A model generated the notes under the pieces. That model did no database searches. It was not told the DNA's origin and saw nothing but the letters and a program-made list of their open reading frames with translations. Positions 2,301 through 44,846 of a DNA stretch of 45,625 nt are shown piece by piece (position 1 is the stretch's first letter; each line of letters starts with the position of its first letter). Both the position numbers and the translations under genes were made by a program. The DNA is from a virus. The stretch covers positions 1 to 45,625 of the IMG/VR virus record IMGVR_UViG_3300031999_000047; one strand, written 5' to 3'.

Positions 2301-3665
2301 ATGAGATTTGCAACAGTATGCAGCGGAATCGGAGCACCAGAGGTGGCATGGGCGCCAATGTACTGGACTCCTGTTTTTTGTTCCGAGATAGAACCTTTTC
2401 CGTGCGCCGTTCTGAATGTTCATCGCCCAGAGGTTCCAAATTACGGCGACATGAAAAAGTTTAAGGAGTGGCCCGATGCAACAGTTGAACTTATTTGCGC
2501 AGGAACACCTTGCCAGGCTTTCAGTGTCGCCGGATTGCGAAAGGGATTGGATGACCCTCGTGGCAACCTTACCCTCGTTTTCCTTGGCATCGTTCGGCGC
2601 TATAGCCCCAAGTGGGTGGTATGGGAGAACGTGCCCGGAGTCCTGTCAGATAAAACCGGAGCGTTTGGAGCCTTCCTTGGAGGGCTGGGGCAACTCGGGT
2701 ATGGGTTCGCTTACAGAATTTTGGACGCTCAATACTTTGGAGTTCCCCAGCGCCGCCGTCGCGTCTTCGTTGTCGGATGTTTTGGAAGTTGGCAAAGTGC
2801 CGCAGCGGTACTTTTTGAGCGCCACAGCTTGCAAGGGCATACTCCGCCGAGCAGAAAAAAGGGGCAAAAGCCTGCCGGAACAATTAGCGCGCGCACTAAG
2901 GGCGGTGGTGGACTCGGAACCGACTTCGATTTAGATGGCGGCTTGATTGCCCACTCATTACGCGCCGAAGGGTTCGACGCATCGGAAGACGGCACCGGGC
3001 GTGGTACTCCGCTTGTCATGGCGCACGGCCAAGGCAACGCTGAGATAGTCAGGGACGGCTCGCCGTCCCTGACATGCAACCATGAGGCACCTATTGCGTT
3101 TGCAGAGAATCAGCGCGGGGAAATACGGGAAATGCTCGAAAGCCCCGCGTTATCATCTGGTGGTGGCAAGCCGGGAAGCGGATATCCAGCAATCTGTTTC
3201 AAGGGCGGTCAAGGCGCAAAATCAAGAGGGCTTGGTATCGGAATTGAAATAGCGCCCACCTTGCCGAGTTCTGATTCTGGAAGCAATCGGGCTCCGGTGG
3301 TTTCTTTGCAGTCGGTCAATTGTCCAAGGCAGAGGAAGCAAAACGGAATCGGCATTTCAGAAAGTGATGTAATGTACTCGTGCACGTCCAGGGATTTACA
3401 CAGCATTCAGAGCGGAATGCAAGTTCGCCGACTCACGCCGAGAGAATGCGAACGGTTGCAGGGGTTCCCCGATGATTATACGCTGGTAAATCATCGCGGC
3501 AAACCGGCAGCAGATGGGCCACGATACAAAGCGCTGGGTAATTCGATGGCTGTTCCCGTTGTCCGGTGGATAGGCGAAAGAATCCAGGCAACCGGCACAC
3601 TCGGTGCCGGAAGAGCCGCCGCAGGAGAAAGCGGAACAGGCCAGCACAGCATGCAACAGCGGTAG
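2301..3665 (+). CDS. DNA (cytosine-5) methyltransferase
   Basis: The 454-residue product has the C5-methyltransferase motifs in order: SAM-binding FATVCSGIGAPEVA (3-16), catalytic PCQ loop with Cys71, ENVPG (109-113), and YFGVPQRRRR (145-154). A long variable target-recognition region follows, and a C-terminal motif GNSMAVPVVRWIGERI. It transfers methyl to C5 of cytosine in a specific site. With no endonuclease beside it, it is probably an orphan anti-restriction enzyme. The cassette leader precedes ATG 2301, though the ribosome-binding site (GGGAAG) is modest. The last residues (about GESGTGQHSMQQR) are encoded by the attC-like site. A second, overlapping gene occupies 2476-2934 in another frame. 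Confidence 0.93.
   Translation: MRFATVCSGIGAPEVAWAPMYWTPVFCSEIEPFPCAVLNVHRPEVPNYGDMKKFKEWPDATVELICAGTPCQAFSVAGLRKGLDDPRGNLTLVFLGIVRRYSPKWVVWENVPGVLSDKTGAFGAFLGGLGQLGYGFAYRILDAQYFGVPQRRRRVFVVGCFGSWQSAAAVLFERHSLQGHTPPSRKKGQKPAGTISARTKGGGGLGTDFDLDGGLIAHSLRAEGFDASEDGTGRGTPLVMAHGQGNAEIVRDGSPSLTCNHEAPIAFAENQRGEIREMLESPALSSGGGKPGSGYPAICFKGGQGAKSRGLGIGIEIAPTLPSSDSGSNRAPVVSLQSVNCPRQRKQNGIGISESDVMYSCTSRDLHSIQSGMQVRRLTPRECERLQGFPDDYTLVNHRGKPAADGPRYKALGNSMAVPVVRWIGERIQATGTLGAGRAAAGESGTGQHSMQQR
2476..2934 (+). CDS. Overprinted ORF inside the cytosine methyltransferase gene (152 aa)
   Basis: This ORF lies wholly within 2301-3665 in a different frame. ATG 2476 has AAGGAG at 2462-2467, ideally spaced. The protein has unbiased composition and a strongly protein-like C-terminus, for example FWTLNTLEFPSAA, SSLSDVLEVGKVPQRYFLS and ACKGILRRAEKRGKSLPEQL. 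From memory, similar proteins ending in SDILE, P-RYFLS and GILRRAEKRGK motifs are common unnamed phage proteins near cytosine methyltransferases, which argues for a real overprinted gene. It overlaps the methyltransferase region from the PCQ motif to the variable domain. Function is unknown; coupling to methyltransferase expression is a guess. Confidence 0.55.
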   Translation: MQQLNLFAQEHLARLSVSPDCERDWMTLVATLPSFSLASFGAIAPSGWYGRTCPESCQIKPERLEPSLEGWGNSGMGSLTEFWTLNTLEFPSAAVASSLSDVLEVGKVPQRYFLSATACKGILRRAEKRGKSLPEQLARALRAVVDSEPTSI

Positions 3666-5043: not shown

Positions 5044-5841
5044 ATGAAGACAGAAAAACTATCAGACACCATCACCATCATCAACGCGGACTGCTATGCG
5101 TTGCTTGATTCGTGGCCGTCTGATGCTGCGCTTGTCACAGACCCGCCATATGGGATCAGCTATTCGCGGAGTCAAGATATGCGTATGCGCCAGATACTTC
5201 CTGGGCGTACACCAATGGCGTTTGGAAGGAGTGCTGGAGATTGGAAGCAGATTCACGGAGACGACAAGCCATTTGACCCAACCCCTTTTTTGCGGTTCGC
5301 GACTGTGTGCTTATGGGGTGCAAATCACTATGCAAGTAAATTGCCGGATAAGAAAGGGTGGCTGATTTGGAATAAGCTCGCAGGGAAAACGCCGAGCTTT
5401 CAGTCAGATTGTGAACTTGCTTGGACAAACAAAGACACCCCGGCGCGCCTTTTCACATATTTATGGCGTGGTATCATGCGAGAGGGAGAGGAGCACATTA
5501 TGATTGGTGGTCCTAAATTACACCCAAACCAGAAGCCCGTTGCCCTTCTTGCGTGGTGTCTTGATATGTGCTGCATTCACAACGGCGTTGTGATTGACCC
5601 GTTCATGGGTAGCGGAAGCCTGGGCGTGGCTTGTCACCGTGCCGGGCTGAAATACATTGGCGTTGAAATCGACGAACAGCATTTTGAGACGGCTCGGCAA
5701 CGGCTTATGAATGAGCTTGCACAGACGAACCTTTTCAGACAAGACGAAGACGCGCGCGCAGGACAGGGGGAGTGCCCCGGTACAGCGCGCAACAGCGCAA
5801 GCCCAAAAGCTGCGCAGGAAGTTTTGGAATTGGGATTATAG
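5044..5841 (+). CDS. Orphan DNA methyltransferase, beta-class (second copy)
   Basis: The 265-residue product has DPPYG (33-37), HPNQKP (160-165) and DPFMGSG (185-191), the same motif order as the enzyme at 302-1009, with a distinct central region. It probably methylates adenine N6 or cytosine N4 in a different site. The start at ATG 5044 is preceded by the leader identical to that of the first copy. About 60 bases encoding the FRQDEDARAGQGECPGTA tail are also nearly identical between the two genes (903-966 and 5733-5797). The cassettes therefore share both ends but differ in the middle, as expected if cargo was exchanged by recombination. Confidence 0.88.
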   Translation: MKTEKLSDTITIINADCYALLDSWPSDAALVTDPPYGISYSRSQDMRMRQILPGRTPMAFGRSAGDWKQIHGDDKPFDPTPFLRFATVCLWGANHYASKLPDKKGWLIWNKLAGKTPSFQSDCELAWTNKDTPARLFTYLWRGIMREGEEHIMIGGPKLHPNQKPVALLAWCLDMCCIHNGVVIDPFMGSGSLGVACHRAGLKYIGVEIDEQHFETARQRLMNELAQTNLFRQDEDARAGQGECPGTARNSASPKAAQEVLELGL

Positions 5842-11462: not shown

Positions 11463-13703
11463 ATGCCGGTATCAAAGACAAAGTTCAGAGCCTCCGTCGC
11501 AAGGGGAATTGACAAAGCGTCTTTGACCGCGGAGAACAAGGCCGCACATATCCTCGCGGGGTTCTCAGTGATCTCTATCGGCGAAGCCATAGGCCATGAC
11601 ATGGAGATTGACGATACCACGCTCAACCAAGTTGTGGAGCATGGGAACAAATCCAAGAACGGCGTGAAAAGCCGCTTTGGTCATCCCGATATGTCAAGCG
11701 ACGCGCTCGGGACATACCTCGGTCGGGCAAAGAACTTTCGTAAAGACGGCGATCGCGTTCGTGCCGATCTTCATCTTGACGAAAGCTCATTCGATACTCC
11801 GAACGGAGACCTCGGCGGATACGTAAGCCAACTGGCCGAAAGCGACCCTGATGCTTTCGGAGTATCGATAGTGTTCAAGGGCAAGACCGAGCAACGACTC
11901 AATGAAGATGGAACCAGGCAACGCGACGAGGCAGGCAACGCGCTTCTCCCGCTTGCTCGCGTCGAATATCTGTACGCTGTGGACGCCGTTGACGACCCGG
12001 CTACCGGGGACGGAATGTTCTCGCAGTCCGTCGGGCTCTCGGCCTCCGTAAGTTCACAGCTTGACAGGTTTCTTGACGATGAGGAATCGGTTGAGCATGG
12101 AGTTGCCTATCTGAAACGCTTTGCAGGAAACCGCGAACTGTCCGTAGATGATCCGCGCATGGGGAAGTTATGCGCCATCATGGACGCATTTCGATCACAA
12201 TTCAAGCAGGAGGAAACCGCCATGCCCGCAGAGAAACCGGAAGTCGCCGCTGTGGCAACCCAGACCCCCGCGACGGAACAGATTGACAAGAGCGCGTTGC
12301 GCAAGGCCGAACGCGCCCGCATCGACACGATCCGCAAGCTCGGCGCCCGCATGGGCATCGAGGGAAAAGTCATCGAGGACGCGGTTGACGGAGATCTCAG
12401 CATCGAGGAAGTCGCCAGCAAGTTCTCCCGGATCGAGACTTCATCGTTGATTCCGGTCGCCCCCGGCGCCGAGCATCCCACGGTGCAGGTTGCGAAGGAC
12501 GAGACGGACAAGTTTCGCGCCGGCCACGTCAACGCCTTCGCCGTGCGCACCGGGATGGATTCGAGCAACGAAGCGATCACCGCGAACCGCAAGAGTGAGT
12601 TCCGCGGCGCCACACTTCTCTCGCTCGCGCGTGAGTGCCTGTCCCGCGCCGGTCTTCAGGGTATCGTCCGCATGCCCGCCGAGGATGTGTATGCGGCGAT
12701 CATTCGCCAGACCCGGTTCGGCGGCGGCATGTCGCAGCAAACCGACGATTTCACCAACATCCTCGGCGCGACGCTCAACAAGTCGCTCGTGCGCGGATGG
12801 GATGCGGCGCCGGTGACGTACCCGAGATGGTGCGCGCAGGGTTCGCTGTCCGATTTCAAGACGGCCGACCTCGCCAAGCTGTCGGATTTCTCCGATGTCG
12901 AGGAGATTCCCGAGGGGCAGTCCCCGAAGGAAGGCACCTTCAGCGATACGAAGGAAACGGCAAAGCTCTCGACGTGGGGAAAGTTCTTCACCCTCACTCG
13001 GCAGGCGCTCATCAACGACGACCTGAATGCGTTCACGCGCATCCCGGCCAGCATGACCGGCAGCCTCCGCCGCAAGATGAACAAGCTCGCCTACGGCATG
13101 CTGTTCAACGGCAATGGAGTCAATGCGAATTTTGCCGGACCCACGATGCTGGAAGATTCGGTGGCGCTGTTCAATCTGGCGTCCCACGCGAACGTGGGAA
13201 CCGCCGGCGCGATCAGCAAGACCACTCTGGACGAGGCGTTCGTCGCGTTTGCCAATCAGACGCTCCCGTCGCCCGATGGCGGCCGGTCCGCTGCGATCCG
13301 AACGAACATCCGGCCCCGGTACATGCTATGTGGCAACCGCAACGAGATGCTCGCCGCGCAGACGTTCTCCTCGGCGCTTCTGGCGATCACCGCCGACGCC
13401 GTCACCGCGGGCACCGATCTCGTCAACATCTACGGGCCGGGCCGCCCGCGGAATCTGGACATCATCGTGGATGCGGAGATCGACAATCTGAGCGCGACGA
13501 AGACCGCGCCGTGGTGGTTGGCGGCCGATCCCGTGCAGCTCGGGACCATCACCCTCTATACCCTCAACGGAGCGAGCGCGCCTTACACGGCGTCCGCGCC
13601 TTCGGAGATCGGCGAGGCGGATGGCATGAAGTGGTATGTCCGGCATGACTTCGTTTTCGCAGCGGAGGACTTCCGGGGTCTGTTCGTCAACCAGGGAGCA
13701 TAA
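11463..13703 (+). CDS. Prohead protease / scaffold / major capsid protein fusion
   Basis: The 746-residue product joins three parts. Residues 1-190 resemble a prohead serine protease (GHPDMSSDALG with candidate His74, and SDPDAFGVSIVF with candidate Ser135). Residues 250-330 are charged and helical, like a scaffold (delta) domain. Residues 350-746 look like an HK97-fold major capsid protein. Such fusions self-process during assembly. ATG 11463 is used because AGGAGG (11451-11456) directly abuts the alternative ATG 11457. An internal ATG at codon 254 has its own perfect Shine-Dalgarno, so a separate scaffold-capsid product is likely. Confidence 0.85.
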   Translation: MPVSKTKFRASVARGIDKASLTAENKAAHILAGFSVISIGEAIGHDMEIDDTTLNQVVEHGNKSKNGVKSRFGHPDMSSDALGTYLGRAKNFRKDGDRVRADLHLDESSFDTPNGDLGGYVSQLAESDPDAFGVSIVFKGKTEQRLNEDGTRQRDEAGNALLPLARVEYLYAVDAVDDPATGDGMFSQSVGLSASVSSQLDRFLDDEESVEHGVAYLKRFAGNRELSVDDPRMGKLCAIMDAFRSQFKQEETAMPAEKPEVAAVATQTPATEQIDKSALRKAERARIDTIRKLGARMGIEGKVIEDAVDGDLSIEEVASKFSRIETSSLIPVAPGAEHPTVQVAKDETDKFRAGHVNAFAVRTGMDSSNEAITANRKSEFRGATLLSLARECLSRAGLQGIVRMPAEDVYAAIIRQTRFGGGMSQQTDDFTNILGATLNKSLVRGWDAAPVTYPRWCAQGSLSDFKTADLAKLSDFSDVEEIPEGQSPKEGTFSDTKETAKLSTWGKFFTLTRQALINDDLNAFTRIPASMTGSLRRKMNKLAYGMLFNGNGVNANFAGPTMLEDSVALFNLASHANVGTAGAISKTTLDEAFVAFANQTLPSPDGGRSAAIRTNIRPRYMLCGNRNEMLAAQTFSSALLAITADAVTAGTDLVNIYGPGRPRNLDIIVDAEIDNLSATKTAPWWLAADPVQLGTITLYTLNGASAPYTASAPSEIGEADGMKWYVRHDFVFAAEDFRGLFVNQGA
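12208..12224 (+). promoter_or_regulatory. Internal ribosome-binding site and start for scaffold-capsid product
   Basis: AGGAGG at 12208-12213 lies eight bases before an in-frame ATG (12222-12224) within the protease-capsid gene. Translation here would give a 493-residue protein (starting MPAEKPEVAAVATQ) holding scaffold and capsid domains but no protease, much as lambda Nu3 is nested in gene C. It would explain how capsid subunits outnumber protease. Confidence 0.65.
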
Positions 13704-13718
13704 GCGCCTGGAGAACGC

Positions 13719-13746
13719 GCGGGGCGCGTGGAATATCGCGCCCCGC
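13719..13746 (+). terminator. Strong hairpin after the capsid gene
   Basis: A perfect 10-bp GC-rich stem (GCGGGGCGCG at 13719-13728 with CGCGCCCCGC at 13737-13746) has an 8-base loop and lies 16 bases after the capsid stop. The downstream run is only ATTTCG, so it may be a weak terminator or an RNA-stabilising hairpin. Confidence 0.55.
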
Positions 13747-13800
13747 ATTTCGATGCTTGTCACGCTCATTCTCACCACGACAACCGAAAGAGAGGCTATT

Positions 13801-14271
13801 ATGGCTCGGGAAGGAATCGAAATTCAGGTTCTTGAGGAAGCGGTCCAGGTCAACTACACGAATAACACGGCCGCGGCTATGGCCGTCGGCGAGATCATCG
13901 GCATTGCCACGACCACCGGCAAGCGTATCGCGGGCATGGTGCTCGCAACCATCGCCGGTGCGGCAACCGGCGCGGTGCTCATCTACGGGCGCGTAAACGT
14001 CAAGAAGACGACCTCGCGCGCGTTCGCGCAGGGCGCGGATGTCTATTGGGACGCCAGCGCGAACCAGGCCGACACAAAGGCGATTGCTTCGCAGCATGGC
14101 GACTTCTGCGTCGGTATGTGCACAAAGGCAGCGGCGGCGGCCGACGGGTTCGTTGAGGTGGATTTGAACCGCGGCACGACCACCAGTATGCCGTCGTCGT
14201 CCAGTTCGAGCAGCAGCTCAAGCAGTTCGTCGAGCAGCAGCTCGTCCAGCAGTTCCAGTTCGTCGAGCTGA
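13801..14271 (+). CDS. Capsid decoration (DUF2190-like) protein with 25-serine tail, copy 1
   Basis: The 156-residue product has a small beta-rich domain (1-125) of the DUF2190 type found next to phage capsid genes and thought to cement the shell (motifs VGEIIGIATTTGKR, QGADVYWDASANQAD). It ends in PS followed by 24 more serines. The serine codons are mixed (TCG, TCC, AGT, AGC, TCA), so the run is kept at protein level and is not a simple DNA slippage tract. GAGAGG at about 13789 serves ATG 13801. The adjacent paralogue at 14341 has an even longer tail. The exposed tail is a candidate for O-glycosylation. Confidence 0.8.
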   Translation: MAREGIEIQVLEEAVQVNYTNNTAAAMAVGEIIGIATTTGKRIAGMVLATIAGAATGAVLIYGRVNVKKTTSRAFAQGADVYWDASANQADTKAIASQHGDFCVGMCTKAAAAADGFVEVDLNRGTTTSMPSSSSSSSSSSSSSSSSSSSSSSSSS

Positions 14272-20970: not shown

Positions 20971-21963
20971 ATGGTCAACGCAAAAGCCCTGTTTCTTCTC
21001 CGCCTCCAGGCCGACGAACTCACGCCGGAAACCACGCTCACGAATGGCGATCTCTTCGAGGCGGATCCCAGCAGCAAGCTCGAACCGGACATCCGCACCA
21101 CCGAGGTCAATCTCCTCGGCGCCGGGTTCGACCAGGACGCCTCAGTCGTTGGCCGGCAATTGGCGACCGTCACATTGACCGCGCCGATCCGCCCGTATGG
21201 CGCGAAGGATTCGCTCGTCGTCCCGGATTGGGTGAGGGGCATGCAGGCCGCCGGGTTCGCGCGCTCGGGGAACAATGGGTATCACATCCTTCGACCGTCG
21301 AATACCGTCTTGACATCGGCGACCGTCTGGCGTTACGGCGGGGATCTCAACTCGTCGCAGTGCCTTTTGGCGAAGGCCGGGAACGTCAAGTTCGATTGGA
21401 AACTCAATTTCGACTTTTCGGGCGAGGTCATGGGCAAGGTCGAACTCACTGGCGCCGGGCAATATGGCGGAGCACCGACCACGCAGAGTCAGCCGACCGT
21501 CCATAAGAGCCGGTACGCGGTCCCGCCGCTCACCACTGCAACCGTGAGTATCAATGGCAGCAGTGCCTACCGCCCGATCAGTCTGGAGATCAGCGGCAAT
21601 CAAAAGGTGGAAGCGACGGTCATGCCCACAGTTGCCTCGAACGTCGGCCGATCACGCATTACCGATCGCAAGATCAAATGGTCCGCGAAGGTCTACCGCG
21701 AACTCACGGCGACCGTGGACCCGGAAGCCGCGGTCATCGCCGGCACGCTCGGCGCGATCCGGCTGTGGTACTCGATCGGCAATCAGATCAAAATCGACCT
21801 CGGCTATTGCCAGGTCACGAAAGCCACACCAAGCGACGAGAACGGCGTGGAGACGATGGACCTCGAAGGCATCGCGGTGCGCAATGACGTCGTGCTGCGC
21901 GTTCTCGGCGCCGCATCGAGTTCGTCCAGTTCGTCTTCCAGTTCGAGCAGCACGTCGGCATAG
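20971..21963 (+). CDS. Major tail tube protein with serine tail
   Basis: The 330-residue beta-rich protein follows the terminator-like gene and precedes the tail chaperones and tape measure, the standard position of the tail tube subunit. Its N-terminus (RTTEVNLLGAGFDQDASVVG) and repeated beta pattern suit this fold. It ends with 12 consecutive serines and TSA, echoing the decoration proteins. Many copies per virion would display this tail along the tube. AAAGGAG at 20958-20964 serves ATG 20971. Confidence 0.8.
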   Translation: MVNAKALFLLRLQADELTPETTLTNGDLFEADPSSKLEPDIRTTEVNLLGAGFDQDASVVGRQLATVTLTAPIRPYGAKDSLVVPDWVRGMQAAGFARSGNNGYHILRPSNTVLTSATVWRYGGDLNSSQCLLAKAGNVKFDWKLNFDFSGEVMGKVELTGAGQYGGAPTTQSQPTVHKSRYAVPPLTTATVSINGSSAYRPISLEISGNQKVEATVMPTVASNVGRSRITDRKIKWSAKVYRELTATVDPEAAVIAGTLGAIRLWYSIGNQIKIDLGYCQVTKATPSDENGVETMDLEGIAVRNDVVLRVLGAASSSSSSSSSSSSTSA

Positions 21964-28716: not shown

Positions 28717-29646
28717 ATGGCAGCACGCAAGATCATTCTGGACAAGGGGCAAGCGCCCGGCGATATCGTGGTATTCACCGGCGCACTGCGGGACCTCAAG
28801 AGGCAGTATCCCGATTGGGAGATAGACGTGCGGTCGTGCTGCATGGACGTTTTCGCGAACAATCCGCACATCACCCCTCTTGAGGAGAGCGCGCCCGGCG
28901 TTGAGTATCACGACGTGGGATACAGCGACGTCCATCAGTCGAACCACTCGGGGCGTCATTTCTCGGCGGCATACCATCTGGAACTCGAAGACCTACTCGG
29001 GATCCGCCTGCGCCAGACGGAAATATTCCCGGACCTCCATCTCTCGGCCGATGAGAAGGCGGCGCCGTGCCAGGTCTCGACCGACCTCAACTATGACGGC
29101 CCGTTCTGGCTTATCAACTCGGGCAACAAAGACGATTTTCCGCTCAAACAATGGGGGTTCGAACGGTGGCAGCGTTTCGTGGATCTCCTGCGCGATCGCG
29201 TGCAGTTCGTTCAGATCGGCGAGTTATCAGCCGGCCACCACCACCCGCTTCTCTCCGGGGTCATGGACCTCCGCGGGCGGACCACGTTGCGGCAGTTGAT
29301 CGTCCTATCCTCGCGCGCTCAGGGGGCCGTAGGGCACGTGTCCCTCCTCATGCACCTCATGGGGGCCTGGCGCAAGCCATGCGTGGTCCTGGCGGGCGGT
29401 AGAGAGCCCTGGCGGTGGGAGGCGTATCCTCAACATCAGTACCTCCACACATGCGGCGCGCTGCCGTGCTGCGACCCCGGAGGGTGCTGGCTGAGCGGCA
29501 ACGTCGAGATCGATATAGAGCATGTCCGCACCGAAAACAAGCGGTGTCGCAACATGCGTGGAAACTCCGCGGGATGCATGGCGATGATCTCGCCGGAGAC
29601 CGCGGCGCGGGCGGTGACGCTCTATCTCGATGGCGGTGTCGCATGA
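28717..29646 (+). CDS. Glycosyltransferase family 9 (heptosyltransferase-like)
   Basis: The 309-residue product resembles ADP-heptose:LPS heptosyltransferases in its N-terminal PGDIVVFTGALRDLKRQYPDW and its C-terminal donor-binding region (LIVLSSRAQGAVGHVSLLMH, then CVVLAGGREPWRWEAYPQHQ). It lacks a membrane segment. It starts a run of sugar-modifying genes with overlapping ends. Phage members of this family occur among other glyco-genes; the acceptor could be host surface glycan or a virion protein. ATG 28717 follows CAAGGGGACACC. Confidence 0.75.
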   Translation: MAARKIILDKGQAPGDIVVFTGALRDLKRQYPDWEIDVRSCCMDVFANNPHITPLEESAPGVEYHDVGYSDVHQSNHSGRHFSAAYHLELEDLLGIRLRQTEIFPDLHLSADEKAAPCQVSTDLNYDGPFWLINSGNKDDFPLKQWGFERWQRFVDLLRDRVQFVQIGELSAGHHHPLLSGVMDLRGRTTLRQLIVLSSRAQGAVGHVSLLMHLMGAWRKPCVVLAGGREPWRWEAYPQHQYLHTCGALPCCDPGGCWLSGNVEIDIEHVRTENKRCRNMRGNSAGCMAMISPETAARAVTLYLDGGVA

Positions 29647-30299
29647 GCACCTACAATTTCACGCACCGAGGGCGCGCCTTCTCGATGGAACTCCACGCCG
29701 GCAACGAGCAGATGTCCGTGCACCAACAGAAAGAGGGAGGTTTCTTCGAGCACGAAATGCTCGACTATTTGGCCGACCACTACCCCGACCACGGCGTCGT
29801 CATCGATGTCGGGGCGAACGTCGGCAACCACTCACTCTATTTCTCCGCATTTCTGCGGCACTCGTTCATTATCTCGATTGAGCCGCAGCCGAGAAACTAC
29901 GCGCTACTCGTGGGGAACGTCAGCGACGCATGGTGCATCCCGCTTAACGTGGCGATGGCTGGAAAACCGGGTCCGGTGTGGATCGCGACGGACGAATACA
30001 ATATGGGCATGTGTCACATCGAGCCGCGGGCGAATCGGTACAACGCGGCAGCCGTGACTGTCGATGGGCTCGGCTTGAGCAACGTCACCCTCATCAAGAT
30101 CGATACCGAGGGGAACGAACTCGACGTCCTCGAAGGCGCGCGCGAAACGGTGCAGCGGGATCGGCCATTGATCGTCATCGAGATCGCAGTTGAGAGTTTC
30201 GACCAATACGATGCATACATGCAGTCAATCGGATACGATCTGGAGCACTACTGGCGTGACCGCATTGTCGCGCTATATCACCCGAGGGGGAACAGATGA
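29643..30299 (+). CDS. FkbM-family SAM methyltransferase
   Basis: The 218-residue product has the FkbM-type fold: SAM motif VVIDVGANVGNHSLYFSAF (52-70), SIEPQPRNYALL, and IKIDTEGNELDVLEGA. FkbM enzymes O-methylate sugars or small molecules. It overlaps the GT9 gene by four bases and the next gene by four, so it is part of a tightly coupled glyco-operon. ATG 29643 is preferred over the upstream in-frame start at 29415, which lies inside the GT9 gene. Confidence 0.88.
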   Translation: MSTYNFTHRGRAFSMELHAGNEQMSVHQQKEGGFFEHEMLDYLADHYPDHGVVIDVGANVGNHSLYFSAFLRHSFIISIEPQPRNYALLVGNVSDAWCIPLNVAMAGKPGPVWIATDEYNMGMCHIEPRANRYNAAAVTVDGLGLSNVTLIKIDTEGNELDVLEGARETVQRDRPLIVIEIAVESFDQYDAYMQSIGYDLEHYWRDRIVALYHPRGNR

Positions 30300-30979
30300 G
30301 ACCGATAATCGCACTGGTCACATGCATCATCGGAGACATCGACGAACTGCGCGCTCCGGTCGATCAGTCGTTGCCCTACCATGGCTTTTGCTTTACGGAT
30401 CAGAGGATCGGAAGCAAGCATTACCGCATCGTCCCGATTCCTGAGAAGGGCGATCAACCGAACATCATCCGGGCGAAATACTACAAGTACGCATACAGCC
30501 AGATCCCCGAACTCCAGGGGTATGAATACATCGCCTACATCGACGCCTCGATCCACATCAAGAATGTCAATTTCCTCAGCGATTGGATTGCCCGCTGCAA
30601 GAATGGAATCGTGATGTTCGATCACCCCTCGCGCGATTGCGCCATGGCCGAGGCTGCTTTCTCTACAGGCGTTCCGAAATACAAGATGCTCGATCTCGAA
30701 GGGCAATGCCGCACGTACCGCGCCGAGGGATTCCCGGACCATTACGGACTCTGGTGCACCGGGATCAAGCTCTTTCGCCGCTCGCCCGAACTTGACGCGA
30801 TTGACATGGAGATACACCAAGAGTGCCTGCGATGGGGGCAGCAGGACCAGGTGGCGCAGCCGTTCATTTTCTGGAAGCACGGATTCAAGCCGGACGTTTT
30901 TCCGGGCGACATGCGATGGAATGACCACACCGCCAAGTGCAACCACAAGCCACATTATCAAGAACTGGGGAAACGGTAG
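30296..30979 (+). CDS. DUF616-type (TOD1/MUCI70-like) glycosyltransferase
   Basis: The 227-residue product matches the DUF616 pattern: an N-terminal strand (MRPIIALVTCIIGDIDEL), a YIAYIDASIHIK segment with the acidic residues expected of a GT-A donor site, and VMFDHPSRDCAMAEA followed by WGQQDQVAQPFIFWKHG. Members are glycosyltransferase-like enzymes found in plants and bacterial or phage glycan clusters. The donor sugar is unknown. It overlaps FkbM by four bases. Confidence 0.75.
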   Translation: MRPIIALVTCIIGDIDELRAPVDQSLPYHGFCFTDQRIGSKHYRIVPIPEKGDQPNIIRAKYYKYAYSQIPELQGYEYIAYIDASIHIKNVNFLSDWIARCKNGIVMFDHPSRDCAMAEAAFSTGVPKYKMLDLEGQCRTYRAEGFPDHYGLWCTGIKLFRRSPELDAIDMEIHQECLRWGQQDQVAQPFIFWKHGFKPDVFPGDMRWNDHTAKCNHKPHYQELGKR

Positions 30980-30980
30980 T

Positions 30981-31562
30981 ATGCGCAGATGGGAAATCAT
31001 CAACTGGCTGATCGGTGAGCACGGATACAAGTCATATCTGGAGATCGGAATTGACAATCCGAGCAACTGCTTTGACCACATCGCGTTGACGGACAAGACG
31101 GGCGTCGATCCACACAAGGCGACGACGTTTCGGATGACCTCGGATGCGTTCTTCGCGCAGAATGTCAAGACGTTCGATATCATGTTCATTGACGGACTGC
31201 ACTTGGACGAGCAGGTGCGCCGCGATATCGGCAACTCCATCGCCAACCTAAACGACGGCGGAACGATAATCGTGCACGACTGCCATCCCTACAAGGAGGA
31301 CGCCTGCGGGGATGAACAGAGACCTGGACAGCCATGGTATGGCACCACATACCGCGCCTATGCGTTCTACCGGCATACGCGCCCGGACTTGCGCATGCAC
31401 TGCGTAAACGATGACTGCGGCCTCGGCATCATTCAGCGGGGCGCGCAGGATGTTTACCCGGTGCTGGTTGACACCTGGGAAAAGTACATCGAGCATCAGG
31501 ACGCGATGTTGAACCTCATCTCTCACGAGCAACTCGTCGAGATTTACGGGCGGAAATCATGA
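30981..31562 (+). CDS. Class I SAM-dependent methyltransferase
   Basis: The 193-residue protein has a methyltransferase core: YLEIGIDNPSNCFDHI (motif I region), DIMFIDGLHLDEQVRRDI (motif IV/V) and IIVHDCHPY. This is the Methyltransf_24 pattern often seen in glycan clusters. It probably methylates a sugar on the glycan built by its neighbours. The start is ATG 30981, two bases after the previous stop, and its own stop overlaps the next start. Confidence 0.8.
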   Translation: MRRWEIINWLIGEHGYKSYLEIGIDNPSNCFDHIALTDKTGVDPHKATTFRMTSDAFFAQNVKTFDIMFIDGLHLDEQVRRDIGNSIANLNDGGTIIVHDCHPYKEDACGDEQRPGQPWYGTTYRAYAFYRHTRPDLRMHCVNDDCGLGIIQRGAQDVYPVLVDTWEKYIEHQDAMLNLISHEQLVEIYGRKS

Positions 31563-32224
31563 GCGGAACCTTCATTTTCACTTTCGACGATGGGTTGAGT
31601 TCGGTGTACGATCATGCCTTCCCGCATCTGCGCGCGCGTGGGATACGGGCGGTGTCCTTCGTCTGCGGATCACTCGTGGGCACGCCGGGATACATGACGG
31701 TGGACCAGCTCCGGGAATTGCAGGACGCCGGATGGGATGTATGCTCGCACGGATACGTTCATCAAAAGATGGATGCGATGCACATCGATGAGGCAATCGG
31801 GAATATCACGGCCAATCTCGAATGGATGTGGGAACATGGACTCGCGGCAACGCGCCTGTTCTGCTTTCCATGGGGCCGCACGAACGACGCGATCAGCGAG
31901 GCGATGCCCAACTATCATTCCTACGCGCGCGGGGTCCGGCTGCACGCAAACCGTCTTTTTGAGGACTTCCCGCCGGATCGCCCCGAGTACCTGACGGCGG
32001 TCCACTTCGACAGTGAGTTCGATGTCATGGAGCTTGAGACAGTGTTCAACCTCATGGAAGGCGATGAGTTCACGATGTCCTACTCCCACAAGGTGCACCC
32101 GGTCGAGGTCAACGGGCTCACAACTTCTCTCGAACAGATTGACCAGGTGATCGCGGCGGCCGGGCGCGCGGAGACGCGGATCACCACCTTCCACGACATG
32201 ATCGAGGCGCACCGTGCACATTGA
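31559..32224 (+). CDS. Polysaccharide deacetylase (NodB-like)
   Basis: The 221-residue product has the carbohydrate esterase 4 motifs: TFDDG (8-12, catalytic Asp and metal Asp) and SHGYVH (63-68, metal-binding His64 and His68), and a late STTFHD-like ITTFHDMI. It would remove N-acetyl groups from an acetylamino sugar. It lacks a signal peptide, so it works in the cytoplasm on a sugar intermediate or on assembled virions. Overlaps on both sides place it in the same operon. Confidence 0.88.
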   Translation: MSGTFIFTFDDGLSSVYDHAFPHLRARGIRAVSFVCGSLVGTPGYMTVDQLRELQDAGWDVCSHGYVHQKMDAMHIDEAIGNITANLEWMWEHGLAATRLFCFPWGRTNDAISEAMPNYHSYARGVRLHANRLFEDFPPDRPEYLTAVHFDSEFDVMELETVFNLMEGDEFTMSYSHKVHPVEVNGLTTSLEQIDQVIAAAGRAETRITTFHDMIEAHRAH

Positions 32225-32732
32225 CATCCGCATACCATACGAGCCCGACTTCAAGCTTGGGACCGCATACAACCGCATCATGCGCAACGTCGAGGATTGG
32301 GTGCTCATCCTTGATACCGATGTTTTTGTGGCGCTAATTCCCGATTGGTACGACCGATGTCTGAAGGCAATCGAGAAGGTAGGCGATACGGCCGGCTGGA
32401 TCACCTGCCTCACGAACCGAATCGGGTGCCCGCATCAGAAATACCCGCACGAGGTTTCCGACGACATCACGGACCACATGATTGTTGCCCGCGATCTCGC
32501 CCTGCAGAACGATGGTATTATCGTGGACATCACCGCGCACAAACCGCACATGAGCGGTTTCTTCATTCTCACCCGGCGCCGGTGCTGGGAAGCCGTCGGG
32601 CCGTTCCCGGAGAAGTTTCTCGGTCTTGACAATTGGTATGGGGACCGCTTGCGCGAAAAGGGCTTCACCCTCCACGTAATGCAGGATCTCTACGTCTATC
32701 ACGCCTATCACCGTCTTTGGAAAGGAAAGTGA
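32214..32732 (+). CDS. Short GT-A glycosyltransferase (GT2-like)
   Basis: The 172-residue product carries a GT-A core with DXD-type motif in WVLILDTDVFVALIPDWYDR and an acceptor-side segment SGFFILTRRRCWEAVGPFPE followed by LDNWYGDRLREKG. It is shorter than usual GT2 enzymes (about 230-300) and lacks most of the N-terminal nucleotide-binding strand, so it may be truncated or belong to a compact phage lineage. The GTG start at 32214 overlaps the deacetylase end by 11 bases. Confidence 0.72.
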   Translation: MHIDIRIPYEPDFKLGTAYNRIMRNVEDWVLILDTDVFVALIPDWYDRCLKAIEKVGDTAGWITCLTNRIGCPHQKYPHEVSDDITDHMIVARDLALQNDGIIVDITAHKPHMSGFFILTRRRCWEAVGPFPEKFLGLDNWYGDRLREKGFTLHVMQDLYVYHAYHRLWKGK

Positions 32733-32735
32733 CCC

Positions 32736-33701
32736 ATGGGGACTAAGGCCATTTTCATTGCGTCTACAGACAATTACTTGCCATATCTCCACGTTCTTCT
32801 GAACAGCATCGAGAAGCGGTGCGAGAATCCGAAGGATTTGGATGTCTACATCCTGCACCACGAATTCCCGGTGAAGTATTTCGACTTCACTCATCTCTTC
32901 TCGTTCAACGTTATCCCTATCAGCGTTGACAGATCGAGTATCGAGTGTCCTATTGAGACGAAACGCATTGAGTTTATCAAGCGCGCCCGCTTCTCCTACA
33001 TCATCGAGTACGCCATGAAGTACGATTCGGTGTGCCTGCTCGATGCCGACATGTTCATCGTATCCCCGCAATTCTTCGATCTCTTTGAGTTGGTACGCGG
33101 TAAGCGCTTTATGGTAGGGTGCAACGAGCGCTTCAAGTGGCAGATCGGCCCGAACTTCACAGCCAACGGCGAGCCACTTTTCACTGAGCCAACCAAGCTT
33201 TACAATATGCACTGCTCAGTGCCGATCATCTTCGATATGCCTTCCTGGAAATACGTATTCGAATACTACAACCGGATTTGCTTCAACGGAAAGCAGGTTG
33301 ACAAAGAGGGTAACGTCAAGGGAATCGGTGATATTTTCTGCTGGAATATCGCGGTTCAGAAGCTCGCTCGCGCCTGCGATATGATCATCTTCCCCATGGA
33401 AGCAATGACCCAGGTCCATCAGACGAATCTTGCGCCGCAGACCTTCATGGTCGTCGAGAACGATTACTGGTTCACGAACGCCGGGGACCGCGTGTATTCG
33501 ATCCATGGCCGTGTCGCTCAGGACGGTTGGGCGGAGGGACACATGGAGCGATACTACCGGGATATGGGCGATAATGCGGCACCGGGACTCACCGCGAAAC
33601 TCGAAGGAAAAGTGCGTTGCGGACTCGAAGCGATAGTTGACGAATGGCACAGACTCGAATCCATGACCTTCCCGATTGGTGGAATGGTACAGAAGAAATA
33701 G
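32736..33701 (+). CDS. GT8-like glycosyltransferase
   Basis: The 321-residue protein has a GT-A fold with donor motif VCLLDADMFIV and a start typical of GT8-like enzymes (AIFIASTDNYLPYLHVLLNS). A C-terminal YSIHGRVAQDGWAEGH segment supplies a likely metal-binding His. It would transfer a sugar from a nucleotide donor. It closes the main glyco-block before the fibre-like gene, with ATG 32736 just after the previous stop and GGAAAGTGACCC in front. Confidence 0.75.
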   Translation: MGTKAIFIASTDNYLPYLHVLLNSIEKRCENPKDLDVYILHHEFPVKYFDFTHLFSFNVIPISVDRSSIECPIETKRIEFIKRARFSYIIEYAMKYDSVCLLDADMFIVSPQFFDLFELVRGKRFMVGCNERFKWQIGPNFTANGEPLFTEPTKLYNMHCSVPIIFDMPSWKYVFEYYNRICFNGKQVDKEGNVKGIGDIFCWNIAVQKLARACDMIIFPMEAMTQVHQTNLAPQTFMVVENDYWFTNAGDRVYSIHGRVAQDGWAEGHMERYYRDMGDNAAPGLTAKLEGKVRCGLEAIVDEWHRLESMTFPIGGMVQKK

Positions 33702-41442: not shown

Positions 41443-42555
41443 ATGAACGAAACCATGATCGAACAGGCACAGGGCCAGAACAAGGCAATCCAGACAAACG
41501 AGACCGCATCGACCGCGGTGGCGGCGCAGGCACGGGCAATCATCGAGGCGCGCTACCTGATGGCGAAACACCAACCCCGCGACATGGACCTCGCCCGCCA
41601 GCGCATCCTCAAGGAGTGCGCCCGCCCCGGATTTGCCGAGGCTGCGAAATACTCCAAACCGGTGGGCGAATCATCCATCGTCGGGCCGTCCATTCGGTTC
41701 GCCGAGGCCGCGATCCGGTGTCTCGGCAACATCGACATCTCGTGCATGACGGTCTACGACGATGCCGAGAAGCGCATCGTGCGCGTGTGCTGCACCGACC
41801 TGGAATCCAATCACGACTACTCGCAGGATGTCACGATCCAGAAGACCGTTGAACGCAAGAACCCGGCAGGATACGAGGTCGTGAGTCAGCGCACGAACAA
41901 ACAAAACCAAATCGTTTACATCGTGCGAGCCACCGACGACGACATTCTCAACAAGCAGAACGCGCTCATCTCGAAAGCAATCCGCACGCTCGGATTGCGC
42001 CTGGTGCCGGGCGACATCATCGATGAGGCCATGGATGCCGTAGCCGTCACGCAAAGCAAGCGCGACGCCGTGGACCCGGACGCGGCGCGCAAGAAGCTGC
42101 TAGACGCATTCTCCGCCGTAGGAGTGCCCGCGGACGAGGTCAAGCGCTACCTGGGCCACGACTGCGGGACTCTCGACCCGAAAGAGCTTTCCGATCTGCG
42201 GGCACTCTACTCCGCAATCAAGGACGGCGAAACTACCTGGCGCGAAGTGATGGACGGACGAAACGCGGACGGGGAGAAATCCGCCGAACCGATTGGCAAA
42301 GGCGCCGCCGGGCTCAAGGCGGCAATCGGGAAAAAGGCCGAAGCCCCGACCGAACTTCTCGCGCAGTGCACCGCGATCATCGGAGAGTCCGGTCCGATGG
42401 TGACCGAGTACGGCATTGCGCATAAGTGGATTACCGCCGGCCAGACATGGCAGCACGCGACGCCAGACAACCTCAAGACCATCGTCGCGGCAGGCGCGGG
42501 ATTCATGAAATCCGTTTCAAATTTCATCGACAAAAAAGACACTGTGATCAAATAG
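41443..42555 (+). CDS. Probable single-strand annealing protein partner
   Basis: The 370-residue product lies four bases after the YqaJ exonuclease, as RecT- or Bet-type annealing proteins do. The N-terminal 220 residues (ARAIIEARYLMAKHQPRDMD, VGPSIRFAEAAIRCLGNIDI) form one domain of a type common next to phage exonucleases. The C-terminal third is Lys/Glu/Ala-rich with a final small domain. The annealing role is inferred from context, not from a proven motif. Together they would repair ends and promote recombination. Confidence 0.6.
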   Translation: MNETMIEQAQGQNKAIQTNETASTAVAAQARAIIEARYLMAKHQPRDMDLARQRILKECARPGFAEAAKYSKPVGESSIVGPSIRFAEAAIRCLGNIDISCMTVYDDAEKRIVRVCCTDLESNHDYSQDVTIQKTVERKNPAGYEVVSQRTNKQNQIVYIVRATDDDILNKQNALISKAIRTLGLRLVPGDIIDEAMDAVAVTQSKRDAVDPDAARKKLLDAFSAVGVPADEVKRYLGHDCGTLDPKELSDLRALYSAIKDGETTWREVMDGRNADGEKSAEPIGKGAAGLKAAIGKKAEAPTELLAQCTAIIGESGPMVTEYGIAHKWITAGQTWQHATPDNLKTIVAAGAGFMKSVSNFIDKKDTVIK

Positions 42556-42558
42556 GGG

Positions 42559-42587
42559 TTGTGCGAATGACAACCATGCACTATATT
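42559..42587 (+). promoter_or_regulatory. Candidate promoter for the structured RNA
   Basis: TTGTGC (42559-42564, three of six matches to the -35 consensus) is 17 bases from TATATT (42582-42587). Transcription would begin at about 42593, directly before the long hairpin. Confidence 0.5.
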
Positions 42588-42592
42588 TCAGG

Positions 42593-42910
42593 TGTACGAT
42601 TCCCCGCTGCCACGGAGAATGAGAAAAGCCCGACTGCAAACGTCGGTTTTCCCAAGTGGCAGCTTGGGGGAATCGACAACAAGCAGCCGGGCTTTTTTTG
42701 TTCCCCGGTACATGGTGCAAGTGCGGCGCGGAAACATGCGCCGACATGTGGGATACTGAGTAACAGGTATCATTCGACGCATGCACCATGGTCCATCGGG
42801 AGCGGGGATAATACCGCTCGTTCGGGGAGTTCGACCTCTCACCCGATCCGGGAGTCAGCCGTTTACGCCATGACTTCTCGGCGGTCAGTCTTCTGACCTT
42901 TTGGCCGAGA
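42593..42910 (+). ncRNA. Highly structured non-coding region, candidate new RNA
   Basis: About 320 bases without a convincing ORF contain a chain of stems. P1 pairs CGATTCCCCGCTGCCAC (42597-42613) with 42656-42675 over 17 bp with a 3-base bulge; inside it CCGAC pairs with GTCGG. A T7 run follows at 42693-42699. Next, 42711-42719 pairs with 42782-42790 (9 bp), enclosing hairpins CGGCGC/GCGCCG and GATAC/GTATC. Then 42795-42799 pairs with 42843-42847, enclosing GAGCGG/CCGCTC and a TTCGAC-loop hairpin. The end is CTCGGC-GGTCAG-TCTT-CTGACC-TTTTG-GCCGAG (42877-42909). Within P1, AAAGCCCGACTGC can instead pair with GCAGCCGGGCTTT (42683-42695) to make a terminator, so the first part looks like a switch. 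Confidence 0.55.
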
Positions 42911-42956
42911 TGTAACCGTTTATCCATATCACCATTGACAAGAAAGAGGGTGCCAA

Positions 42957-44222
42957 GTGAAAATACTCAAGTTGACAGCAGAGAATTTCAAACGGCTTCG
43001 CGCCATCGAGATCACGCCCGATCCTGACAACCCCCTGGTGACGATCACGGGCCGCAACGGGCAGGGAAAGAGCAGCGTGCTGGATGCCATTGCCGCCGCG
43101 CTATCAGGGCGCGAACTTCCCGAGCTTCCGATCCGATCCGGCGAGAACGCGGCGTACATCGCGGTGGACTGCGGCGAATTCGTCATCAAGCGCTCGATCA
43201 CCGCGTCTGGTGCACGCTTGACGGTAGAAAACAAGGAGGGATTCGCGAAGAAGAGTCCCCAGAAGTTCCTTGAGGAGCGCGTGGGTTCGGTGTCGATAGA
43301 CCCCATGGCGTTCACCCGCCTAAAGCCCTCAGAGCAGCGCGCCATCCTCTGCCGGGTCATCGGGGTGGACGTGGACGCCTACCTGGCGCACATCGCCCAA
43401 CTCACCGAGGAACGGCGTCAGATCGGCCGGGAGCGGGACCGGCTGGCCGGCTACGCCGCGTCGCTTCCGGCGCACGCGGATGCGCCGGCCGCCGAGGTAT
43501 CGGTGACGGACCTGATGGAGGAGTACAACCGGATCCAGGAGCACAACCGGATCGCGGCGGCGCGTGTCGATCAGATGCGGGCACGCAAGGATGAGTCCCT
43601 GCGCATGGCCGAGAAAATCAACACCCTACTCGATCAGGCGAAGCAGATGCAGGCGCACCTCGAGAAGGTGAATGCCGACTACGAATCGACCAAGGCCGAG
43701 TGCGACAAGCCCGACAACGCCCCGCAGTCAACCGACGCGATCCGCGCCCGGCTCGGCAACGTCGAGGTTGAGAACAAGAAGGTGCGCGCCAACACGGAAC
43801 GCACGAAGGCAACCGTCTCCGCCGAAAAGGCAGAAGCCGAGTACGTCGCGAAAACCGAAGAGATCACGCGCACACAAGGACAACTCGACGCAAAACTTCA
43901 CGAGTGCAAACTCCCCGTAGAAGATCTGTCCATCACCGGAACCGAGATTCTCTCTCGCGGGATTCCATTCGCCCAATTGTCAAGCTCTGAGAAGATCAAG
44001 ATCAGCAGCGCGATTGCCATGAGCGAGAAGCCTGACATCAAGGTCCTGCGCGTGACGGACGGAAGCCTGCTCGACACCGAGTCGATGGCGACACTCGAAG
44101 CGATCGCGCGGGAGAACGATTTCCAGGTTTGGATCGAAGTGGTTGACGACTCGCCCACGAGCGGATTCATCATCGAGGACGGCGCGGTCGTCAGCGCGCC
44201 CGCAGAACTACAAGCGGTGTGA
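42957..44222 (+). CDS. Rad50/SMC-like AAA ATPase
   Basis: The 421-residue product starts KILKLTAENFKRLRAIEI with Walker A GRNGQGKS (32-39), a hallmark of RecF/SMC-type ATPases. A coiled-coil region (about 145-300) follows, then an ABC-signature-like QLSSSEKIKISSAIAM and a variant Walker B region (IKVLRVTDGSLLD). It is short for Rad50 but normal for phage members that act in DNA repair or with an exonuclease. GTG 42957 has AAAGAGGG upstream. It begins the last phage operon before the cassette array. Confidence 0.82.
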   Translation: MKILKLTAENFKRLRAIEITPDPDNPLVTITGRNGQGKSSVLDAIAAALSGRELPELPIRSGENAAYIAVDCGEFVIKRSITASGARLTVENKEGFAKKSPQKFLEERVGSVSIDPMAFTRLKPSEQRAILCRVIGVDVDAYLAHIAQLTEERRQIGRERDRLAGYAASLPAHADAPAAEVSVTDLMEEYNRIQEHNRIAAARVDQMRARKDESLRMAEKINTLLDQAKQMQAHLEKVNADYESTKAECDKPDNAPQSTDAIRARLGNVEVENKKVRANTERTKATVSAEKAEAEYVAKTEEITRTQGQLDAKLHECKLPVEDLSITGTEILSRGIPFAQLSSSEKIKISSAIAMSEKPDIKVLRVTDGSLLDTESMATLEAIARENDFQVWIEVVDDSPTSGFIIEDGAVVSAPAELQAV

Positions 44223-44223
44223 T

Positions 44224-44583
44224 ATGGGATACGACGCAAAGACAATCGAGAAACTCAACCCCGGAGAGCGCGCGGTGCTGGCCGCGTTGCTTTCCGGGGG
44301 CCGGTGGACAAACGTAATGCTGTCAAGTCGGTGTTGCCTCAATGTCAACACGGCGCAGAAGTGGCTCAGCGCAATCGAGCAGTATTCAGACGCCGAGACG
44401 ATTCCGTACAAGATCGAAAGCGCATTCCCGGAAGGCGGGAAGCTGAAGGAACACTGGATCGCCGGGAAGGAAGAGGAGCCCAAACCGAGATCGTGCGTTT
44501 GCGGCGTGTCAATCTTCTTCAGTACACAAACCCGCTGTGGTTCGTGGGTGTGCAGCGAGTGCGGCGCAGTGAGGATGCGATGA
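44224..44583 (+). CDS. Small HTH / zinc-ribbon protein (119 aa)
   Basis: ATG 44224 lies just after the ATPase stop. The N-terminal 70 residues (NPGERAVLAALLSGGRWTNV, then LNVNTAQKWLSAIEQY) look like a winged helix. The C-terminal part has Cys pairs (SCVCG, then SWVCSECGAVRMR) for a zinc ribbon. It may bind DNA as a regulator or a replication accessory. The next gene overlaps its end by four bases. Confidence 0.62.
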   Translation: MGYDAKTIEKLNPGERAVLAALLSGGRWTNVMLSSRCCLNVNTAQKWLSAIEQYSDAETIPYKIESAFPEGGKLKEHWIAGKEEEPKPRSCVCGVSIFFSTQTRCGSWVCSECGAVRMR

Positions 44584-44846
44584 GAGGCAAAGGAAAAGTA
44601 GTCCCATCCCGCGCGTACTTGGAGGATGTCCACTGGCTGCTCGGCGTCGCGGCCAAGTTGACATCGGACACTGGCCGCGCACACGGTGCGGCGGACGCGA
44701 TTGCGTGGGCGCGTCGGGAGATGACGCGGTTGCAGCGGCAGGTTGTGTACCTGGAAACCGACCGGGCGGCATTGTTGCGAAAGGTCAACGAGTTGGTGCG
44801 AGAGAAATCAAAGTGGCTACAGTTTGAGGGTACATACAAGAAGTAG
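44580..44846 (+). CDS. Small coiled-coil protein at the left border of the cassette array (88 aa)
   Basis: ATG 44580 overlaps the previous stop, with GAGGATGCG in front. The product is basic and helical, ending in a coiled coil (MTRLQRQVVYLETDRAALLR, KVNELVREKSKW). The last base of its TAG stop is the G of a GTTGTAA core, after which the cassette array starts. This stop codon is therefore the likely insertion point (attI-like) of the array. No family is recognised. Confidence 0.6.
   Translation: MRGKGKVVPSRAYLEDVHWLLGVAAKLTSDTGRAHGAADAIAWARREMTRLQRQVVYLETDRAALLRKVNELVREKSKWLQFEGTYKK

Follow-up and report, generated by a model that had tools for sequence, protein, structure and literature searches.

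What does the structured DNA between a recombination-type and a repair-type gene of an uncultured phage do, and could it take part in the timing of the gene that follows? Phage gene timing is usually attributed to promoters, repressors and processive antitermination proteins. The DNA considered here is positions 1 to 45,625 of IMG/VR virus record IMGVR_UViG_3300031999_000047, and this whole stretch of 45,625 nucleotides is called the window. In the window, the structured element sits between a PHROG 3657 gene of unassigned function (41443-42555, plus strand), which is preceded by a RecE-like exonuclease gene and stops just short of the element, and a gene for an SbcC/RecF-like AAA ATPase (PHROG 1499, Pfam AAA_23; 42957-44222, plus strand), which is presumed to be the regulated gene. 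A Shine-Dalgarno-like AGAGGG (42945-42950, plus strand) stands in the sequence ahead of the GTG at 42957. The large genes flanking the element, which is referred to below as the leader, are all oriented rightward.

Fold strength and architecture of the leader

The first-pass annotation of this DNA had described a structured RNA of about 320 bases at 42593-42910, and the strongest fold of the record was indeed found there. The plus-strand folding energy of 42593-42920 was -161.1 kcal/mol, compared with -113.9 ± 5.7 kcal/mol for dinucleotide shuffles (z = -8.2; none of the 100 shuffles was as low). When the GC-corrected energies of all 150-nt segments of the record were compared on both strands, the most extreme value was that at 42601. 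The minus strand of the leader also folded beyond expectation, as any palindrome would. Outside the leader, the stretches 951-1100 and 1951-2100 were among the next strongest folds of the record.

A diverged relative was found via the ATPase protein in two IMG/VR phage contigs, L002 and L003, which are near-identical and effectively represent one second sequence. All comparative evidence given below therefore comes from one diverged pair, that is, from two distinct sequences and a single comparison for covariation. L002 and L003 carry the same gene-leader-gene arrangement as the window. The PHROG 3657 gene was 99-100% identical between the relative and the window up to about 42500, i.e., to within about 55 bases of the gene end. 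Across the promoter, the identity was only 40%; in the leader, it was 75% (domain 1), 76% (domain 2), 83% (domain 3) and 96% (domain 4), and the ATPase gene was 86-98% identical (86-90% across most of its length). The upstream gene is thus near-identical, whereas the leader has diverged jointly with the ATPase gene, as if the leader and the larger part of that gene had been exchanged as one cassette. Domain 4 exceeds the greater part of the ATPase gene in conservation, which points to a binding site or to a role in translation. In the comparison with L003, the mosaic boundary was sharp (42500-44000), with upstream genes at 97-100% and the leader-ATPase block at 75-90%, and a 180-aa ORF 3' of this block (44304-44846) showed 70% identity with L003.

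All the parts that had been described for the RNA were located, namely the rod, the terminator pairing with T7, the three-way junction, the second three-way-like unit and the nested hairpin. The rod and the terminator belong to domain 1 and are treated below. Domain 2 (42711-42790, plus strand) is a three-way junction with two hairpins and the closing stem CATGGTGC/GCACCATG, which is CATAGTGA/TCACTATG in L002. Domain 3 (42797-42850, plus strand), the second three-way-like unit, has two hairpins and a closing stem of 3 bp, and contains compensatory changes. Domain 4 (42851-42927, plus strand) combines a hairpin with a nested one (GGTCAG/CTGACC in the window, GATCAG/CTGATC in L002), followed by CCGTTTATCCAT. 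The nested hairpin had been reported to end the RNA with a T4 run; the hairpin itself is present at 42877-42909, but the TTTT forms an internal bulge and there is no terminator tail. The sole terminator of the leader is the one with the U7 tract at 42693-42699. The motif CCGTTTA occurs twice in domain 4 (42859 and 42916), and AAACGGCT, roughly 12 codons downstream of the ATPase start (42990), is complementary to its first copy. This early coding sequence can pair with AGCCGTTT, and the pairing is kept in the relative with a G-U change.

A promoter-like element before the rod had also been proposed. It is present at 42559-42587 (plus strand) as TTGTGC-17-TATATT, and at the corresponding place, a few bases ahead of the RNA, L002 has the near-consensus TTGACA-17-TATATT (11 of 12 consensus positions). 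However, the element of the window is weak, with 8 of 12 consensus positions and a score under the threshold of the promoter scan. Judged from these sequences, the promoter of the window may either be weaker or depend on an activator or upstream read-through.

Two mutually exclusive folds of domain 1

Domain 1 is built from the plus-strand segments A (42597-42613; CGATTCCCC GCTGCCAC), B (42622-42637), C (42642-42656), D (42656-42677), and E with U7 (42683-42699; GCAGCCGGGC TTTTTTT), of which E proper covers 42683-42692 and U7 comes next. In the rod, A, as the 5' strand, pairs with D, and B pairs with C. In the terminator, C pairs with D as an inner hairpin nested in B:E, and E with U7 forms the 3' strand of an intrinsic terminator. 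The terminator pairing is thus AGAAAAGCCCG...CGGGCTTTTTT followed by T7, and its helix comprises 31 pairs in the model common to the window and the relative. The proposal that this first unit adopts either a rod or an intrinsic terminator, each excluding the other, held for both the window and the diverged relative.

The minimum-energy fold depended on the length of domain 1 that was folded. With a 92-column prefix ending before E, it was the rod (-41.2 kcal/mol for the window and -48.0 kcal/mol for L002); with the full domain 1, it was the terminator (-54.6 and -65.7 kcal/mol, respectively), which was more stable than the rod as a final state by 8-11 kcal/mol. When the folding was followed stepwise, the rod stayed ahead until the last bases of E appeared and the terminator was ahead thereafter, and this tipping point was the same in both sequences. 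RNA polymerase shields roughly the last dozen nucleotides of its transcript. Because these nucleotides are covered, the decision between the rod and the terminator would fall while the polymerase is crossing the U tract, as estimated from equilibrium energies and not from a kinetic simulation.

The folds of the relative were then compared with a null in which the 63 substitutions that distinguish the two RNAs were scattered at random on the window sequence and the indels were left unchanged. The L002 leader had a folding energy of -155.6 kcal/mol, compared with -125.7 ± 6.6 kcal/mol for the same substitutions randomly placed (0 of 300 trials as low). In the truncated domain 1, the L002 rod was at -48.0 kcal/mol against a null of -29.0 ± 4.0 kcal/mol, and in the full domain 1, the L002 terminator was at -65.7 kcal/mol against -37.0 ± 4.1 kcal/mol; neither value was reached in 1500 trials each, and these two tests are correlated because segments A and C are alike, so that the pairing of D with either of them is partly one fact counted twice.

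Compensatory changes were seen in every domain in this one diverged comparison, with three two-sided pairs in the rod, three in the terminator, three in domain 2, and four in domains 3-4. When the 3' partners were slid by 1-3 columns as a control, there were no such pairs, except for one at +2 for the rod and the terminator. Within-column shuffles, which are weak with two rows, reached the observed compensatory counts in 26-66 of 500 cases. From the window to L002, the change of C to U in column 45 is answered in the rod by G to A in column 59 and in the terminator by G to A in column 104, and the change in column 59 is also answered by C to U in column 89 in the terminator hairpin. Compensation at the column pairs 21-76 and 23-74 concerns the rod alone. 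Since the relative preserves both folds through matched mutations, domain 1 is probably a real genetic switch. We are highly confident that the leader is a selected RNA structure, and it is a real structured RNA, apparently one not recorded before, whose two-state terminator is conserved.

Distribution of the element and comparison with known RNA families

In the DNA and neighbour-gene scans of viral contigs, L002 and L003 were the sole carriers of the element. In L015 and L036, the same two flanking genes abut and the leader is absent; the element is therefore optional, and the ATPase gene does not always depend on it. The terminase-based search of viral contigs returned short contigs from the same phages or from related ones, with no match to either covariance model, and BLAST searches of phage, plasmid and E. 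coli sequences gave no meaningful match. Two covariance models built here (R1 and R2) had no match in the loci of the flanking-gene relatives, and R1 had no convincing match in their whole records, where a match in G013 reached an E value of 0.06 over about one third of the model. Several candidates were rejected: L037-L039 of the viral contig scan as chance matches, L055, an unrelated large phage, as a bare 17-mer, and L040 of the genome contig scan as a chance 21-mer within a Desulfobacula gene. In the relatives L019 and L020, a terminator-like stretch rich in T and a tRNA-like sequence were noticed by eye directly after the PHROG 3657 gene, so that the position 3' of this gene may be one where RNA elements insert recurrently.

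The leader matched no known RNA family. With Rfam, there was no match at the gathering thresholds in the entire window, only sub-threshold noise with lax filters in the leader region of the window and the relative, and no riboswitch with a known aptamer domain in either. ARAGORN found no tRNA or tmRNA, in agreement with the first-pass annotation, which had judged the RNA not to be a tRNA. The threonine operon leader (RF00506) was a sub-threshold match, at 17.2 bits against a gathering threshold of 55, centred on the AAAAGCCCG/CGGGCTTTT terminator; within the terminator, the two differ in spacing by over 40 nt, and thr genes are absent here.

The nearest arrangement tested was that of Gifsy-1 IsrK and the isrK-C4 leaders of P4/N15/P1-like phages (RF01394, RF01695 and RF03163), and we asked, prompted by the order of the parts and by an open frame across the RNA, whether the leader is a distant relative of the isrK/C4 (CI) antisense immunity module of P4/P1/N15-type phages. 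Both share the order of a phage promoter, a short RNA ending in TTTTTTTG with a read-through-capable terminator and alternative leader structures, a three-way-junction RNA made of two hairpins and a long closing stem, and a gene, and the P4 and N15-type controls carry isrK and C4 in that order. The IsrK locus likewise gives rise to two transcripts that involve alternative structures, a terminated sRNA and an mRNA made by read-through (PMC4825925). However, the C4 model (RF01695) had no match in the window at E <= 10, while the positive controls P4, N15, PY54, D6 and others scored 71-83 bits. The isrK model (RF01394) did not match the window and was positive for the P4/N15-type controls, and c4-a1b1 in Rfam had no match to the leader. 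Furthermore, nhmmer and both of our covariance models showed no similarity with P4/N15-type loci, and a match to an ash or icd protein was absent. In a scan for complementarity conserved in both sequences, no loop of domain 2 matched an upstream site in domain 1 as well as one at the ribosome-binding site. The leader thus differs from isrK-C4 in that neither paired complementary target sites nor a sequence or model match were found. The terminator here is also much longer, and the downstream gene encodes an SbcC/RecF-like ATPase in place of the icd/ash-antirepressor operon. With the models, the complementarity and the family searches negative and the controls positive, membership in C4/isrK/CI was rejected, and a distant kinship is very unlikely.

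The leader as a putative transcription attenuator

We favour, with moderate confidence, the explanation that the leader is a transcription attenuator of the downstream SbcC/RecF-like ATPase gene with its own internal promoter. The terminator and the antiterminator exclude each other and are both conserved in the one diverged comparison, a promoter lies 5' (a strong one in the relative and a weak one in the window), and a gene on the same strand lies 3'. From the computed fold conservation, tipping point, compensatory changes, same-strand upstream position and promoter of the relative, we infer that transcription of the leader takes place, that its terminator is functional, and that the expression of the ATPase is set by read-through. 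The internal promoter would drive the ATPase gene through a structured 5' leader, in which the rod (A:D with B:C) would serve as the antiterminator, and C:D in B:E, followed by U7, as a long intrinsic terminator. According to the predicted folding, the rod would arise first, as A-D are being transcribed, and the terminator would become lower in energy only once the last bases of E emerge and the polymerase crosses the U tract. Small shifts in rod stability or polymerase speed should then decide between a terminated RNA of about 110 nt, released as an sRNA, and a read-through RNA that continues into domains 2-4 and the ATPase gene. If this is true, phages time recombination/repair-type ATPase genes by RNA folding as well, and the leader would be a compact natural two-state RNA whose folds are directly testable by mutation.

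Such a leader would be like the trp- and TRAP-type leaders, T-boxes and transcriptional riboswitches, in which exclusive folds share segments and the later one is a U-tract terminator, and like transcription attenuators in being located 5' of a same-strand gene. In contrast to these, no leader-peptide codon run (by eye), T-box or Rfam riboswitch was found here, the segments nest as A:D with B:C versus C:D in B:E, and the leader is phage-borne and lies ahead of a DNA-repair-type gene. The attenuator may also be part of a larger device, a new class of phage cis-regulatory RNA in which domains 2-4 act as a sensor that tilts the balance between the rod and the terminator of domain 1 and thereby gates the repair gene. 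The sensor could respond to a small molecule, to a protein encoded by the phage (the ATPase itself, for example), or to the state of DNA replication; we regard this extension as quite unlikely.

Alternatively, domain 1 may be a small RNA gene of about 110 nt with a constitutive terminator, whose product acts in trans or titrates a host factor; domains 2-4 would then be separate elements and the rod merely a folding intermediate. The promoter of L002 and the U7 terminator do flank domain 1, and the terminator is the stabler final state by the 8-11 kcal/mol given above. Nevertheless, the rod-only compensations at columns 21-76 and 23-74, which the terminator does not use, would be left unexplained, and in both phages domains 2-4 directly adjoin the start of the ATPase gene and share its divergence. 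We therefore consider a stand-alone small RNA somewhat unlikely. That the sequence acts as DNA, i.e., as an origin, a recombination site or a packaging site whose hairpins form in single-stranded DNA, would accord with the good folding of both strands and with the recombination and repair genes next to it. However, the one-sided changes in the helices are G-U compatible on the plus strand, as against three A-C mismatches, and both the promoter and the U7 tract, which is 3' of its stem, are oriented on the plus strand. A DNA element is thus highly improbable.

The leader region could also be a protein-coding gene of 109-111 aa. It had been described as holding no credible ORF. A frame of 109 codons (42567-42896, plus strand) does run across the RNA in the window, is open in the diverged relative too (111 codons), and has an AGGGG-like site ahead of its ATG, but no constraint was seen at the protein level. 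In the gap-free part, 21 codons were changed in their amino acid compared with 20.3 expected, so that silent changes were not in excess, and the substitutions were evenly spread across the three codon positions. The frame was kept open in 8% of neutral simulations. Moreover, the frames of the window and the relative are out of register through part of domain 1, the frame has no Pfam or NCBIfam match, and tblastn against phages and plasmids gave weak matches only (best E value, 0.2). Purifying selection on an encoded protein was not found; the coding explanation was rejected and is almost certainly wrong. Two of the grounds on which the first-pass annotation would have given up its reading, missing covariation and a conserved ORF across the RNA, were thus checked, and neither of them refuted it.

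Some further features of the window were observed away from the leader. Two DNA methyltransferase genes were recognized by PHROG match at 2301-3665 and 5044-5841. Long serine runs end the ORF products at 13636-14271 and 20971-21963, beside the head and tail genes. After the tail genes, 28717-33701 carries genes for surface-sugar-type enzymes, comprising a GT9 glycosyltransferase, an FkbM methyltransferase, a Methyltransf_24 protein, a polysaccharide deacetylase and a GT8 glycosyltransferase, a set that is unusual for a phage of this size.
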